From assembly GCF_004323735.1 (NCBI RefSeq), contig NZ_CP036455.1, positions 1,297,101-1,361,100 of the forward strand: 64,000 nt of DNA, written 5' to 3'. The stretch is from Streptomonospora litoralis. Its GTDB lineage: Bacteria > Actinomycetota > Actinomycetes > Streptosporangiales > Streptosporangiaceae. The notes under the pieces are model-generated. The model had not been told where the DNA came from. It made no database searches and worked only from the letters and a program-made list of their open reading frames with translations. The position numbers and the translations under genes were made by a program. Positions 32,863 through 50,505 of this stretch are shown here, one piece after another (within the stretch, counting starts at the first letter, position 1; each line of letters begins with the position of its first letter).

Positions 32863-32913
32863 GTGCAGAGCAACTTCCTCATTCTCGTACTTGGTCGGCG
32901 CGCAGCCAGCTGA
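32863..32913 (+). CDS. ilvB leader peptide (branched-chain attenuator)
   Basis: GTG 32863 to TGA 32911 encodes [16 protein letters not shown], 16 residues with Leu x3, Ile and Val in the run FLILVL. The end of the reading frame overlaps a hairpin (CTTGGTC near 32890 with GACCGAG near 32912), and a terminator with a T-run follows. Ribosome stalling at the Leu/Ile/Val codons when charged tRNA is scarce should favour the antiterminated form, as in known ilv attenuators. Confidence 0.8.
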
Positions 32914-32934
32914 CCGAGTCTTTCGCTGCGCGCT

Positions 32935-32968
32935 CCCTCCAACCGCACTCGCGGTGGGGGGTTTTTTG
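32935..32968 (+). terminator. ilvBNC attenuator terminator
   Basis: CCCTCCAACCGC pairs with GCGGTGGGGGG (one mismatch), followed at once by TTTTTTG. It lies between the leader peptide and ilvB, as required for transcription attenuation. Confidence 0.8.
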
Positions 32969-33017
32969 TTGCTCAAGCACTCTCCCGACGACGAGCCCTC
33001 TCCGAAGGATTCTTGCG

Positions 33018-40545: not shown

Positions 40546-41664
40546 ATGAACAGCAGCACCACCACAAGCGGGTTGACGTTCGACGTCCGGCTGTCGGCCC
40601 AGCGGAAGACCCCGCAGGAGCGCGCACAACTGCTGGACAATCCCGGGTTCGGAACCGTGTTCACCGATCACATGGTCGCCATCGACTACACCGAGGGCGA
40701 AGGCTGGTACGACGCCAGGCTGGAGCCCTACGGGCCGCTGACCCTGGACCCGGCCACAGCGGCCCTGCACTACGCCCAGGAGATCTTCGAAGGGCTCAAG
40801 GCGTACCGGCATCCCACCGGCGAGGCCGCCTGCTTCCGGCCCGACGCCAACGCGGCGCGGCTCAACCGCAGCGCACGCCGCATGGCCATGCCGGAGCTGC
40901 CCGAGGAGCTGTTCCTCGGTGCCATCGAGACCCTGCTCCAGCACGACTCCGAGTGGATCCCCACGCAGCCCAACAGCAGCCTGTACCTGCGGCCCTTCAT
41001 GTTCGCCACCGATGTCGGGCTGGGGGTGAACCACCCCTCGCGCAGCTACCGGTTCGTGCTCATCGCCTCGCCGTCGGGCCCGTACTTCTCCGGCGGGATC
41101 AAGCCGGTCACCGTGTGGCTGAGCGAGGACTACACGCGCGCGGCGCCGGGCGGCACCGGTCAGGCCAAATTCGCCGGAAACTACGCCGCCAGCTTCGTCG
41201 CCCAGTCCCAGGCGGTGGAACAGGGCTGCGACCAGGTGGTCTGGCTGGACGCGAAGGAGCACCGCTGGGTCGAGGAGATGGGCGGGATGAACCTGTTCTT
41301 CGTCTTCGGCTCCGGCGACGACGCGCGGCTGCTCACGCCTCCGCTGACCGGAACCCTCCTTCCGGGCATCACCCGCGATTCGCTGCTGAGTCTCGGCCCC
41401 GAGCTCGGCTTCCCGACCGAGGAGTCCCCGATCTCCACCGAGGAGTGGCGCCGCGCCGCGCGCAGCGGCGAGCTGACCGAGGTTTTCGCGTGCGGCACCG
41501 CCGCGGTGATCACCCCCGTCGGCCACGTCAAGAGCAAGGACGGGGAGTTCACCATCGGCGACGGCGGAGCCGGCCCGGTCACGATGGGACTGCGCGAGGA
41601 GCTCGTCGCCCTGCAGTACGGCACCCGCCCCGACACCCACGGCTGGGTGCGCATCTTCGACTGA
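40546..41664 (+). CDS. ilvE: Branched-chain amino acid aminotransferase
   Basis: The 372-residue class IV PLP enzyme has [32 protein letters not shown], the PLP Lys in [26 protein letters not shown] and [13 protein letters not shown]. It performs the last step to Ile, Val and Leu. ATG 40546 follows GGAGAGG. The 279-nt gap after leuB suggests a separate promoter. Confidence 0.96.
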
Positions 41665-41809
41665 GGCGTTCCGGACGGCACCGGTCCGCCCGCCTTCTCC
41701 GGCGCCGCCGCGGGGTGCGGTCGGCGGCCGAGCGGGCGGGCGGCCGGGCCGGTCCACCCCGGTTTCCCCGGTGCCAATCGAGTCCGAGACCAGGAAGAAC
41801 ACCGAAATC

Positions 41810-41826
41810 GTCTCGCTATGTGAGAT
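41810..41826. promoter_or_regulatory. Candidate NdgR operator upstream of cimA
   Basis: GTCTCG-CTATG-TGAGAT, nearly identical to the leuC/ndgR site (GTCTCG-CTATT-TGGGAT). The centre (41818) is again exactly 61 nt before the leaderless leader start at 41879, as in ilvB. Confidence 0.6.
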
Positions 41827-41878
41827 GAGTGTGTCGACTATGCGAACTCCGGCACGCACGTGTGGCACACTGATGAAC

Positions 41879-41920
41879 GTGCCGTCTCAGGTGATCATTA
41901 TCGTGAGGCGCGCTGGCTGA
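41879..41920 (+). CDS. cimA leader peptide (Ile/Val attenuator)
   Basis: GTG 41879 to TGA 41918 encodes VPSQVIIIVRRAG, 13 residues with three Ile and three Val codons, including the run VIIIV. CACACT lies 7 nt before the GTG, so the transcript is probably leaderless; an in-frame ATG at 41873 is the alternative. The stop lies inside a perfect hairpin (41908-41941, GCGCGCTGGC/GCCAGCGCGC), followed by a terminator. This is a classical attenuator layout that would sense isoleucine and valine. Confidence 0.78.
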   Translation: MPSQVIIIVRRAG

Positions 41921-41942
41921 AAACGGACCTCGCCAGCGCGCA

Positions 41943-41976
41943 GACCTCTCGTGTCCACGAGGGGTCTTTTTTATTT
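41943..41976 (+). terminator. cimA attenuator terminator
   Basis: GACCTCTCGTG (41943-41953) pairs with CACGAGGGGTC (41956-41966) with one wobble, followed directly by TTTTTTATTT. It lies between the leader peptide and cimA. Confidence 0.85.
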
Positions 41977-42027
41977 GCCGGCGGGGCCGCGACCACGACA
42001 GCACACCACATCCGGGAGCTCGCACCC

Positions 42028-43626
42028 ATGCCTGACGACCGTTTCCACGTCTTCGACACGACGCTGCGCGACGGCGCCCAGCGCGAAGGCATCAACCTCA
42101 CCGTCGCCGACAAGCTCGCCATCGCCAAGCTCCTCGACGAGTTCGGCGTGCGCTTCATCGAGGGCGGCTGGCCGGGAGCGAACCCGCGCGACACCGAGTT
42201 CTTCGAGCGCGCTTCGAACGAGCTGACGCTGCAGCACGCGCAACTCTGCGCGTTCGGCGCGACCCGCCGGTCCGGGGTGCGGGCGGCCGACGACCCCCAG
42301 GTCGCCGCATTGCGCGAATCCGGTGCGCCGGTGGTCACCCTGGTCGCCAAGAGCGACACCCGCCACGTCGAGCGCGCCCTGCGCACCAGCGGCGAGGAGA
42401 ACCTGGCGATGATCGCCGACACGGTCTCCCACCTGCGCGAGCACGGTCGGCGCGTCTTCCTCGACTGCGAGCACTTCTTCGACGGCTACGTCCACGACTC
42501 CGCCTACGCCACCAACGTCGTGCGCACCGCCGCCGAAGCCGGCGCCGACGTCGTCGTGCTCTGCGACACCAACGGCGGGATGCTGCCGGCCGACATCACC
42601 CGCATCGTCGGCGAGGTCGCCGAGGCCACCGGCGTGCGGCTGGGCATCCACGCCCAGGACGACAGCGGGTGCGCCGTCGCCAACACGCTCGCCGCGGTCG
42701 ACGCCGGTGCCACCCACGTGCAGTGCACCGCCAACGGCTACGGGGAACGGGTGGGCAACGCCAACCTCTTCTCGGTGGCGGGCGCGCTCGCGCTCAAGCA
42801 GGGGCGCGACGTGCTGCCGGAGGGCTGCCTGGAGCAGATGACCCGGGTCTCCCAGGCCATCGCCGAGATCGTGAACATCTCGCCCGCCACCCACCAGCCC
42901 TACGTCGGCGTGTCGGCGTTCGCGCACAAGGCCGGACTGCACGCCTCGGCGATCAAGGTCGACCCCGACCTCTACCAGCACATCGACCCCGCGCTGGTGG
43001 GCAACGACATGCGGATGCTGGTCTCCGACATGGCCGGGCGCGCCTCCATCGAGCTGAAAGCCAAGGAGCTGGGCTTCGACCTCTCGGGCGACCGCGAGCT
43101 GCTGGGCCGCGTCGTCGACCGCGTCAAGGAGCTGGAACTGAGCGGCTACAGCTTCGAGGCCGCCGACGCCTCGCTGGAGCTGCTGCTGCGCGAGGAGCTG
43201 GGGCGTGCGGTGCGCTACTTCGACACCGAGTCCTGGCGGGTGATCGCCGAGCGCCGCGGCAAGGGCGAGACACCCCAGGACGCCGCAGCCAGCGAGGCCA
43301 CCGTCAAGCTGCACGTCAAGGGCGAGCGGGTGATCGCCACGGCCGAGGGCAACGGCCCCGTCAACGCGCTGGACCGGGCGCTGCGCAGCGCCATGGAGGG
43401 CGTCTACACCGCGCTGGCCGGGCTGGAGCTGACCGACTACAAGGTCCGCATCCTGGAGGGCAACTCGGGCACCGGCGCCGTGACCCGCATCCTGGTGACC
43501 TTCGGCGACGGCCGCGGCGAGTGGACCACCGTCGGGGTCGGCGAGAACGTCATCGACGCCTCCTGGATCGCGCTGGAGGACGCGCTGACCTACGGTCTGC
43601 TGCGCCAGGGCTACCCGCAGGACTGA
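42028..43626 (+). CDS. cimA: Citramalate synthase
   Basis: The 532-residue protein has the DRE-TIM barrel start FHVFDTTLRDGAQREG, GGWPGANPRDTEFF, CDTNGGMLP, the metal-site GIHAQDDSGCAVANTLAAVDAGATHVQCTANGYGERVGNANL, and a C-terminal LeuA-like regulatory domain. The length and the GGWPGANPxD signature fit the citramalate synthase group rather than LeuA. It joins pyruvate and acetyl-CoA, giving a threonine-independent route to 2-oxobutyrate and isoleucine. The Ile/Val-rich leader upstream agrees with that role. ATG 42028 follows CGGGAG. Confidence 0.93.
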   Translation: MPDDRFHVFDTTLRDGAQREGINLTVADKLAIAKLLDEFGVRFIEGGWPGANPRDTEFFERASNELTLQHAQLCAFGATRRSGVRAADDPQVAALRESGAPVVTLVAKSDTRHVERALRTSGEENLAMIADTVSHLREHGRRVFLDCEHFFDGYVHDSAYATNVVRTAAEAGADVVVLCDTNGGMLPADITRIVGEVAEATGVRLGIHAQDDSGCAVANTLAAVDAGATHVQCTANGYGERVGNANLFSVAGALALKQGRDVLPEGCLEQMTRVSQAIAEIVNISPATHQPYVGVSAFAHKAGLHASAIKVDPDLYQHIDPALVGNDMRMLVSDMAGRASIELKAKELGFDLSGDRELLGRVVDRVKELELSGYSFEAADASLELLLREELGRAVRYFDTESWRVIAERRGKGETPQDAAASEATVKLHVKGERVIATAEGNGPVNALDRALRSAMEGVYTALAGLELTDYKVRILEGNSGTGAVTRILVTFGDGRGEWTTVGVGENVIDASWIALEDALTYGLLRQGYPQD

Positions 43627-46003: not shown

Positions 46004-46534
46004 GTGTCGAGGGACGGCAGGACAGGGGAACCGTCTCCGCACCGGGTGCCCTTATCCCTTTCGGAGGACCTGGTCGTGCCGACCGCTGTGCGCGGCTCCG
46101 CCCGCAGCCGCCCCCTGTCCGTTGCCGCCAAGCGCCTCGCCGCTCACACCCTGATCGTGTTCACCGCCCTGGCGGTGATGGCCCCACTGGCACTGAGACC
46201 GCTGCCGGAAGGCGGCACATACATGCCGCTGCTCTCACCGGTCTCCGCGGCCGACGTGGAAACCCCCGAGCAGCGCCGCGATCCGGCCGACGGCCGCTCC
46301 CACGCCGCCGCGACCGAGCAGACCGCGGCCGAGACGGGGAAGGCTGGGGATGACACAGCCGCGATCGAGGTCCCCGACGCCGCCCTCCCGCGCTCGCGGC
46401 CTGACGCCCCCGAGGAGGCCGTCGAACCGCCGCCGGATGCCGAGCCTCAGGCGATGCCCGAGCCTCAAGCCCCCGAGGCCGCCGGCTTCGACGAGGAGAC
46501 CAGTGAGGAACTCGTCGAAGAGCGCGATGAGTAA
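46004..46534 (+). CDS. N-terminal fragment of an RHS-type secreted protein
   Basis: The 176-residue product has a membrane/secretion segment (LIVFTALAVMAPLALRPLP, about 50-68), then an acidic, Pro/Glu-rich linker ending EETSEELVEERDE. From memory, RHS proteins of actinobacteria carry such a linker just before a long extracellular beta-rich part. Here the frame stops at 46534, while an RHS core frame starts at ATG 46527 in another frame. I read it as the front end of a large RHS gene whose middle was lost. The region upstream (45893-45945) is AT-rich and may hold the promoter. GTG 46004 follows GGGAGAGG. Confidence 0.6.
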   Translation: MSRDGRTGEPSPHRVPLSLSEDLVVPTAVRGSARSRPLSVAAKRLAAHTLIVFTALAVMAPLALRPLPEGGTYMPLLSPVSAADVETPEQRRDPADGRSHAAATEQTAAETGKAGDDTAAIEVPDAALPRSRPDAPEEAVEPPPDAEPQAMPEPQAPEAAGFDEETSEELVEERDE

Positions 46535-47894
46535 GGGCACGCACACCTACGGCTATGACGACGCGGGCCGGTTGACGTCGTGGACCGCTCCCGGCGGGGA
46601 GACCACCGACTACGAGTGGGACGCCTCGGGCAACCGCGTCCGCGCGGGTGAGGAAACCTTCAGCTACGACGCGCGCAACCGGCTGACCGGATCCGGTGAC
46701 GGCGACACCTGGAGCTACACCCCGCGCGGAACGCTCGCGCAGTCGGTGGTCGACGGCGTAGAGCGGACTCCGGAGTTCGACGCGTTCGAGCGGATGGTCG
46801 CCTCGGGCGACGGCACGGTGGAGTACGGATACGACGCCCTGGGCCGCGTGGCCACACGCACCGAGGACGAGGGACTGATGGCGGCCGCCGAGACATCGGA
46901 GTTCCTCTACGGCGGTCTGGAGAAGAACAACCCCCTCGCCGTGCTGGACAGTGAAGGTGATGCGCTCTCGTCCTACGGCCGCGACGAGGCGGGTGAACTG
47001 GTCAGCATCGCCGACGCCGACCAGCAGCCGGCGCTGGCGTACCTGAACAACCACACCGATCTCGCCGCGACGTACACACCGCAGGGCACCACGACGAGTT
47101 CGACGGCGTTCAGCCCCTTCGGCGAGACCGTCGCCTCCGAGGGCGCCGCGGATTCGCTGGGGTTCCAGAGCGAGTGGACGGATCCCGTCACGGGCGACGT
47201 GAACATGCACGCCCGCTGGTACCAGCCGGGAACGGGAAGGTTCGCCTCACGCGACACCATGACCTTGGAGCCGGACCCCTCGGTGCAGCTCAATCGATAT
47301 ACGTACGGCAATGGTGCGCCGATGCGCTATAGGGACCCCTCGGGGCACTTCCTCGTTGGTTCGACGGGAGCGGCCGTCGGCGCCGGGGCCGCCACTTCGA
47401 TCGGTCTTGGAACCACTATGGCCATCGGGCTCGGGCTACTGGGGGGCGTCGGCGTGGCATTGGCCATCGGGTTCGTCGCCTACACGGCCTACAACTACTA
47501 CACCAGTTCGAGTTCATCGGGGTTCTCGAATAGACCCGCTTATCGACCTGGCATGTACAGCATGTACAGCGGGGGCGGAAGCAGCGGCGGTGCGGGAAGT
47601 GGATCCGGGGGTGGATCGGGAGCGACTGCGACCGGTAGTTTTACCACGACTCCTTACGCGACTCCCGGTTACACCGGTGGGCGATCCTGGTCCCCCCGGA
47701 CATCGGTGCGCCCCGAGCCTCGTCGCCCCGTGGTTCCGAAGGTGGATCCGCGGAAGAAGATCCTGCGGAAAATCCTCAACACGCCCCAGCCTCGGCCTCC
47801 CATCCACAATACAGTCGATCAATCCGATGTTGACAAGGCACGGAAAAAGGCAGAGGAAACCGTGAGGAATTTCCGGATCTCTATGAAGACATGA
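46527..47894 (+). CDS. Truncated RHS repeat protein, C-terminal core
   Basis: The 455-residue frame starts at an ATG that overlaps the previous stop (ATGAGTAA). It has a few YD repeats (YGYDDAGRLTSW, YEWDASGNRV, FSYDARNRLTG, VEYGYDALGRV) and the RHS core end HARWYQPGTGRFASRD with NRYTYGNGAPMRYRDPSGH. After the core come hydrophobic helices (TTMAIGLGLLGGVGVALAIG), a Gly/Ser-rich stretch and a basic tail. No known toxin domain is recognised after the core. Intact RHS proteins are commonly 1500-2500 residues, so most of the shell is missing. Translation may be coupled, or the locus may be decaying. Confidence 0.75.
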   Translation: MSKGTHTYGYDDAGRLTSWTAPGGETTDYEWDASGNRVRAGEETFSYDARNRLTGSGDGDTWSYTPRGTLAQSVVDGVERTPEFDAFERMVASGDGTVEYGYDALGRVATRTEDEGLMAAAETSEFLYGGLEKNNPLAVLDSEGDALSSYGRDEAGELVSIADADQQPALAYLNNHTDLAATYTPQGTTTSSTAFSPFGETVASEGAADSLGFQSEWTDPVTGDVNMHARWYQPGTGRFASRDTMTLEPDPSVQLNRYTYGNGAPMRYRDPSGHFLVGSTGAAVGAGAATSIGLGTTMAIGLGLLGGVGVALAIGFVAYTAYNYYTSSSSSGFSNRPAYRPGMYSMYSGGGSSGGAGSGSGGGSGATATGSFTTTPYATPGYTGGRSWSPRTSVRPEPRRPVVPKVDPRKKILRKILNTPQPRPPIHNTVDQSDVDKARKKAEETVRNFRISMKT

Positions 47895-49927: not shown

Positions 49928-49987
49928 GCAGGCAGGGGCGAACACTGGGGTACGGGGACGCCCGCACGCGGACGCACGCGGTCACCC

Positions 49988-50025
49988 GGGCCCGCGCGGA
50001 TCACCGTCGTGGTCGGCGCGGGCCC
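49988..50025 (+). terminator. Hairpin after gltX
   Basis: GGGCCCGCGC (49988-49997) and GCGCGGGCCC (50016-50025) are perfect 10-bp arms with an 18-nt loop, about 60 nt after the gltX stop and just before the repeat copy. Confidence 0.6.
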
Positions 50026-50033
50026 GCGCCTAT

Positions 50034-50505
50034 ATGAGTGAGTCCGATGTCTTCGGTCGTCGGTGAGACGGCTCGGGTCCGCTGGGCGGCCTTGTGGCCT
50101 GCCGAGCGGCGGGTGGCCTAGGAGAAGCGGCGGTGAGGACGGCAGTGGGCCGGGCCCGCGCCCACCGGAACCGGTGCCCGCCGGTGGCAGCGGAATGTCG
50201 GCTATGCCGGTTTCCGCGCGAACCTCCGTGAAGAAATGACGAAGAACAGGCCCGTGGTTTGGGATTTTCTTCACGAAGGCTGCGGGCGGACCGGGCCGGA
50301 TCGCCGCGCGCCGTCCCCGCCCGGCGCCAGGAGCGGGACGGCGTGGGCGCGGGCGGGAGGGACCGGCGCCGTTGCCGCCGTCTTTCCATCAGGACGCCCG
50401 ATCCCCGCCCGGTGCCAAGGCCGCACAGCAGACCCGAGGCGCCCCCGGCCGGCACCGAGCCGACCGGCCGGCTGGGCAACCTGCTCAGACACCGGACTCA
50501 CTCAT
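50034..50505. repeat. Dispersed intergenic repeat copy flanked by inverted ends
   Basis: Blocks GGGCGGCCTTG, AGGAGAAGCGGCGG, GGGCCGGGCCCG and TGCCCGCCGGTGGC (50080-50200), TATGCCGGTTT, a hairpin (50227-50275, arms CGTGAAGAAA/TTTCTTCACG) and the tail block AGGAGCGGGA ... GCCGCCGTCT (to about 50391) match the copy at 32290-32690. The 56-bp palindrome is missing. The unit is bracketed by ATGAGTGAGTCCGATGTC (50034-50051) and GACACCGGACTCACTCAT (50488-50505), complementary at 17 of 18 positions. No gene is seen. Confidence 0.65.

Follow-up and report, generated by a model that had tools for sequence, protein, structure and literature searches.

The question raised by this locus is how cimA, the gene for citramalate synthase, is controlled from the sequence that precedes it. 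CimA carries out the opening step of the threonine-independent route to isoleucine. In the window, by which we mean the whole stretch of 64,000 nucleotides that was analysed, the gene shares one strand with ilvB (33018), ilvN, ilvC, serA, leuB and ilvE (40546-41664), where ilvB and cimA were named by model and the remaining genes by eye and position. When the window's genome was searched for threonine deaminase, the best match reached 245 bits against a cut-off of 379. The gap between ilvE and cimA is 363 bp long and holds a -10-like hexamer, a leader ORF, a hairpin (hairpin 2) and a terminator (Table 1). A preliminary description had placed a 13-residue leader, a hairpin and a T-run terminator here, and reading and folding of the DNA recovered all three at their coordinates; it had also named the downstream gene as cimA, an identification borne out by the score against model TIGR00977. 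We consider the element to be, with high probability, an isoleucine-specific, ribosome-mediated transcription attenuator of cimA; regulation of the gene by the element is inferred. Elsewhere in the window, a TPP riboswitch was detected at 617-724 at the Rfam gathering level, and an ORF at 46350-47894 resembles, by eye, a fragment of an RHS/YD-repeat protein.

Table 1. Coordinates of cimA, of the parts of the element that precedes it and of the ilvB leader, as positions in the window.
Feature	Position	Strand	Basis
ilvB leader (16 protein letters) with hairpin 2 and terminator	32863-32971	+	R1 match, E 2.2e-5, 28.3 bits
-10-like hexamer CACACT, presumed leader promoter	41866-41871	+	CANACT recurrent across loci
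Leader ORF MPSQVIIIVRRAG and stop	41879-41920	+	Direct reading; leader or variant in 168/176 cimA loci
Hairpin 1, around Ile codons	41886-41907	+	Folding; arm-swap comparison
Control codons ATC ATT ATC (Ile-Ile-Ile)	41894-41902	+	II in 163/168 leaders
Hairpin 2, over stop codon, candidate antiterminator	41908-41941	+	Folding, covariation; abuts terminator
Intrinsic terminator, 11-bp stem and T tract	41942-41976	+	Folding, terminator scan, covariation
cimA, citramalate synthase	42028-43626	+	TIGR00977, 624 bits (cut-off 450); HMGL-like and LeuA_dimer

The 13 residues of the leader and its stop are encoded by GTG CCG TCT CAG GTG ATC ATT ATC GTG AGG CGC GCT GGC TGA, and direct reading offers an in-frame ATG at 41873 as an alternative start. 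The hexamer CACACT ends 7 nt upstream of the GTG; if it is the promoter, no space would remain for a Shine-Dalgarno site. A promoter scan gave no full sigma-70 consensus, and the leader transcript is predicted to be leaderless. Of the 168 cimA loci that carry the element, 133 have CANACT ending 4-13 nt upstream of the leader start, compared with 0 of 167 when the same test was applied 60 nt further upstream, while a looser -10 pattern was present in 159/168 and in 30/167 of the upstream controls. This recurrence is only consistent with a leaderless transcript. The arms of hairpin 2 (41908-41917 and 41932-41941) form 10 perfect pairs around a loop that contains the stop codon; the T tract follows the terminator stem (arms 41942-41952 and 41957-41967). 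Both hairpins were present in the minimum-energy structure of 41879-41980, which folded at -45.6 kcal/mol versus -32.2 +/- 3.3 for shuffled sequences (z = -4.1; 0 of 200 as low). This was the only terminator-like site within 41600-42100 (shuffle mean 0.2), and it ends 51 bp before the cimA start.

Conservation was analyzed in 176 cimA upstream regions, comprising 6 from the genus, 80 from named records, chiefly Streptomycetaceae, and another 90 from genomes of the family. Family genomes were picked from a list, with 96 of 150 examined (6 of the 150 being those of the genus) and 54 left out; the 176 loci include strain duplicates across the collections and yield 158 distinct element sequences. 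The first terminator pattern used missed 30 loci and a looser one missed 21; these were read by eye and the pattern was then widened, so that the patterns are fitted to sequences already viewed. A leader together with a terminator was found in 168/176 regions, in line with the conservation of leader codons and hairpins that the preliminary description had called for in relatives, and the T tract had 5-8 T of 9 in all 168. In the remaining 8 regions the sequence preceding cimA reads, by eye, as the end of leuB. Three of these were read further and gave the order ilvB-ilvN-ilvC-leuB-cimA by tblastn, the third contig holding only part of ilvB. The ilvB upstream region was readable in two of these loci, and both carried a Val/Leu/Ile leader, a hairpin at a TAG stop and a T tract (by eye); one of the two was matched at E 0.0016 by R1, a covariance model built from 71 copies of the cimA element. 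The 8 genomes with cimA behind leuB gave 16 R1 matches, none of them on the cimA contig, the 4 best being leuS leaders. In these samples, cimA has its own leader when it follows a gap and lacks one when it lies behind leuB.

Mean pairwise identity, measured on 74 distinct sequences with 382-400 pairs per comparison, was 0.84 across hairpin 2 and the terminator, 0.78 in the leader (0.59 when shuffled) and 0.71 in the 20 nt holding the -10, and fell to 0.61 both in the distal upstream sequence and in the spacer behind the element (0.60 and 0.58 when shuffled). The element is thus a conserved island between near-shuffled flanks. In one record, named Glycomyces fuscus (L020), both the cimA leader and the gene resemble those of Nocardiopsis, and the name may be wrong.

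Typical leader peptides are MPSQVIIIVRRAG, MFYGLLIIGRRAG and MTSGRIIIGRRVGT, and in Streptomyces MLSFAMIIGSRRAGPQ. An Ile-Ile pair (II) was present in 163 of 168 leaders, while the flanking Val codons were not conserved; since the neighbours of the pair vary, valine lies outside the signal. The earlier proposal of joint control by isoleucine and valine therefore stands for isoleucine and falls for valine. The first codon of the pair was ATT in all 163 leaders (for III the middle codon was counted as the first of the pair), and ATTAT was invariant in 71/71 aligned copies (alignment A1). ATT accounted for 244 of 389 Ile codons in the leaders, as against 8 of 1359 in the cimA coding sequences of the 80 named loci, which are mostly Streptomyces; the share was 12/234 in 33 class-wide cimA fragments and 2/127 in seven genes of the window. 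The leader finder was anchored on an AT[TG]-A-like motif and the AUU counts consequently lean in its favour, although it dropped no terminator-bearing locus. The window's ilvB leader carries ATT, GTA and CTT, of which GTA (4/279 Val codons) and CTT (4/258 Leu codons) are rare in the window genes, and CUU and GUA are among the control codons named for ilvB of C. glutamicum (extract of PMC11857589). In 9 leaders the C-terminal half is in another frame (for example MLATTMIIGSSAPVRSGH) and the RNA arms look alike by eye, which suggests that the RRAG tail is shaped by RNA structure rather than by what the peptide does. These same nine leaders make the peptide itself unlikely as the effector.

Alignment A1 comprises the 71 compact copies, longer copies and Streptomycetaceae being left out. 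Its 21 pairs were 99.7% paired, with slid controls at 35-57%, and 5 pairs had changes on both sides; further pair types numbered 11 versus 13.3 in shuffles, a measure which does not favour structure. In the class alignment (A2, 60 model matches), which is fitted to R1 and includes some leaders of ilvB and leuS together with 3 partial matches that are spurious, 19/21 pairs covaried and 94.5% of cells were paired, compared with 27-61% for slid and 83.9% for shuffled controls. In the family alignment, changes on both sides affected 3/10 pairs of hairpin 2 and 2/11 of the terminator; in the class alignment the counts were 10/10 and 9/11. Covariation of the hairpins was among the checks suggested in the preliminary description. 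Hairpin 1 has a shifting register around the Ile codons. In 85 Streptosporangiaceae its own arms paired at -7.07 kcal/mol versus -6.24 kcal/mol when swapped (0/300 shuffles as good), and in 68 others own arms were hardly better than swapped ones (3/300 shuffles as good); counted per distinct 3' arm, 16 of 24 and 6 of 13, respectively, beat their swaps.

Spacing was read from the 60 A2 rows, 10 of which lacked an ORF and 2 an Ile codon. Among the 48 readable leaders with an Ile codon, 47 had the start of the last such codon 5-11 nt upstream of the hairpin 2 foot, most commonly at 8 nt (21/48). Between hairpin 2 and the terminator, the gap was one base in 53 of the 60 rows, which include the ilvB, leuS and 3 spurious ones. 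With this near-fixed spacing, a ribosome on the Ile codons would be placed close to the foot of hairpin 2, and one that had reached the stop codon would lie over the 5' arm of the hairpin.

The class genomes were searched with R1 under strict filters: of 296 Actinomycetes genomes, 160 gave a match at E <= 0.1. In a list not paired with these matches, 234 of the 296 had cimA at E <= 1e-120. Forty-two matches were chosen and checked, of which 35 lay before cimA, 4 before leuS, 2 before ilvB (L226, L257) and 1 before an unknown gene; they were picked for family spread, with second matches included, and 35/42 is no estimate of a rate. The cimA cases carried 25 family labels besides the window's own. 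Among 20 cimA upstream regions from genomes with no R1 match, 3 carried the element, 6 another conserved stretch and 11 no visible leader, all read by eye; the cimA element is not universal in Actinomycetes. In the window's own genome the cimA leader was the single match at E <= 10. A smaller search, of the window alone, also found the window's ilvB leader (Table 1), a match that agrees with the earlier view of the cimA element as built like the ilvB attenuator. A weak GC-rich match at 49950-50053 on the minus strand (E 0.0055) lacks a T tract and is probably due to chance.

Several other upstream sequences were noted in these searches. Six cimA genes of family label f17 (L282-L286 and L297) lack an Ile leader and share, by eye, a stretch reading GGCGGYGAACC.. 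and then CGTCGCGCG..CCGG; Rfam gave no relevant match to it, and it is perhaps a different RNA control of cimA. An Ile-type leader, MFALVIIM and stop, with the same two hairpins precedes a 107-residue protein in one genome (G318; L251/L276); this protein had no Pfam match and looks ACT-like by eye. Side matches of R1 at L235, L242, L256, L258 and L260-L263 were leuS leaders with the same layout and Leu codons. It is conceivable, though we hold it only tentatively and with some doubt, that the cimA, ilvB and leuS leaders form one ancient family, built on a fixed plan in which a rare synonymous control codon (AUU for Ile in cimA; AUU, GUA and CUU in the ilvB leader) stands at a near-constant distance of about 8 nt from a downstream hairpin, itself one base from the terminator that it abuts. 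With no long shared strand, the abutment would act as the switch and the rare codon would set its sensitivity.

The attenuator that we propose would work as follows. A promoter in the ilvE-cimA gap would start the transcript, of which the leader would be the first codons. With ample Ile-tRNA, the ribosome would reach the stop codon at or inside hairpin 2 with its footprint over the 5' arm and, with this arm covered, the terminator would halt transcription before cimA. Under a shortage of Ile-tRNA, the ribosome would wait on the Ile codons, mostly 6-11 nt upstream of hairpin 2. The hairpin would then form on the emerging RNA and extend into the base of the terminator that it abuts; in the window, GAG at 41905-41907 would contact CUC at 41946-41948. 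Invasion of the terminator foot by hairpin 2 would block termination, and the polymerase would continue into cimA on isoleucine starvation. It may be the conserved one-base abutment itself that matters.

Folding of the full-length RNA gave the terminator at every ribosome position in 152/152 sequences; the E. coli trp control likewise gave 0.96 throughout, and this form of the test is therefore without power. In nascent folding of the window's cimA leader, upstream pairing of the terminator 5' arm was 0.55 when the ribosome stood at the first Ile codon versus 0.06 at the stop, the corresponding values for the E. coli trp control being 0.62 when stalled and 0.01 at the stop. This nascent test is fragile: with the footprint set 6 nt further on, the value for cimA fell from 0.55 to 0.04, while that for trp stayed at 0.62. 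The window's ilvB leader gave 0.37 stalled versus 0.00 at the stop, and two leuS leaders (0.28 vs 0.14 and 0.37) gave no clear contrast. Within the window's family, the stalled state was ahead by more than 0.2 in 51 of 84 sequences and the opposite held in 1; in the Streptomycetaceae-dominated set the counts were 5 of 68 in favour and 30 the other way. These opposite outcomes imply that the sequences as a whole have no single conserved antiterminator. The nascent model thus appears to fit the window's own leader and those of its family, for one of two ribosome placements, and not those of the Streptomycetaceae. A classical antiterminator with a long shared strand was sought by full folding and by inspection of the alignment and was not found. 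Base-pairing across the boundary between hairpin 2 and the terminator foot was absent, by eye, where the leader ends TAGCGCG, as it does in other families.

Other explanations of the same sequence were weighed against the attenuator. The terminator might be constitutive and serve to end the ilvE transcript, the ORF being incidental and cimA not regulated by it. The terminator is indeed strong and forms in every scenario folded, and ilvE ends 277 bp upstream of it on the same strand; we nevertheless regard this as unlikely, given that the conserved block also contains the -10-like site, the leader and hairpin 2, that II is kept in 163/168 leaders, that the spacing from the Ile codons to hairpin 2 is nearly fixed and that a promoter and ORF before a dead-end terminator would be of no use to ilvE. 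The leader might instead act mainly on translation, or respond through the rare AUU to a general slow-down of translation rather than to isoleucine itself. Although AUC would be read by the same tRNA, it is AUU, rare in the seven window genes (2/127 Ile codons), that is kept. Leader ORFs with no obvious terminator precede cys operons in Mycobacterium (extract of PMC1262725), which would also suit such an explanation. The T tract in 168/168 loci, however, points to transcription, while the presence of the element before an Ile-committed gene, and of Leu codons before leuS, points to amino-acid specificity, and we find control through translation or slow-down quite unlikely.

A riboswitch of the T-box or a similar type, binding a metabolite or tRNA and containing an ORF by chance, would account for covarying hairpins upstream of a biosynthetic gene. 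It would not account for the invariant run that A1 shows outside its two stems, which coincides with ATTAT in the Ile codons, or for a hairpin 2 loop which varies in both length and sequence; moreover, the window contains only TPP and tRNA families at the Rfam gathering level, and three representatives of the element had no relevant Rfam family at E <= 1. This we consider very improbable.

The proposed attenuator of cimA shares with the E. coli trp attenuator the common logic of ribosome position, antiterminator and terminator; trp has a long strand shared between antiterminator and terminator, and a leader with a Shine-Dalgarno site. Actinobacterial ilvBNC attenuators of Corynebacterium, Mycobacterium and Streptomyces likewise have a short BCAA leader ORF, 2-3 hairpins and a U-tract terminator (extracts of PMC11857589, PMC10272879, PMC13236596 and PMC1262725). 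The cimA element differs from these in lying before cimA, with its own presumed promoter inside the ilv-leu cluster, and in having conserved codons for Ile only where theirs are mixed Ile/Val/Leu; it would thus work like the ilvB type without being an ilvB attenuator. In C. glutamicum ilvB, the antiterminator lies beside the terminator and overlaps it by three boundary bases, much like the GAG/CUC contact proposed for cimA (extract of PMC11857589). The M. tuberculosis ilvB model has a ribosome at the stop masking the antiterminator, which a stall at LVVI allows to form (extract of PMC13236596). The leuS attenuators of Streptomyces have the same layout as the cimA element, with Leu codons and an aminoacyl-tRNA synthetase gene (extracts of PMC1262725 and PMC8079986). 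The LEU element before actinobacterial leuA also consists of a leader peptide before a related synthase gene, but it is described with a pseudoknot and a base stem on the Shine-Dalgarno box, and the extract mentions no abutting terminator (PMC1262725).

A 2005 survey which included Thermobifida fusca and Streptomyces coelicolor listed elements before trp, trpS, cys, cbs, ilvB, leuS, leuA and ileS, and reported other amino acid pathways to be without conserved structures before their genes (extract of PMC1262725). Its statement that regulation of S. coelicolor ilvB did not respond to alteration of the candidate control codons speaks against ready acceptance of the cimA proposal. The extract of a reannotation and start-site study of S. 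lividans TK24 gives 8 leader peptides, none of them before cimA (PMC8079986), which likewise counts against it. By word count, citramalate is not mentioned in PMC2965389, PMC4833913, PMC10272879, PMC13236596, PMC11109978, PMC6429828 or PMC3766115. Searches combining citramalate synthase with attenuation terms returned PMC13158618, PMC12452182 and PMC10411014, the extracts of which describe no cimA attenuator; PMC6561320, on E. coli fermentation, was also among the matches listed. Among the matches listed from the open-access literature, taken in extract, no attenuator before cimA is described, in agreement with the preliminary description, which knew of none for citramalate synthase. The proposed attenuator before cimA would be new, while ilvB, leuS and trp attenuators of such a kind are known.

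If the proposal is true, the element would constitute a product-specific feedback switch on the threonine-independent isoleucine route in a class with many antibiotic producers. It is very compact, is kept in both Streptomyces and Thermobifida, which are easy to grow, and follows an unexplained rule (a rare AUU and a one-base abutment) that makes it a clean test case. Since regulation of S. coelicolor ilvB reportedly remained unchanged after candidate control codons were altered (extract of PMC1262725), the cimA element could help to settle whether attenuation by actinobacterial BCAA leaders is codon-dependent.
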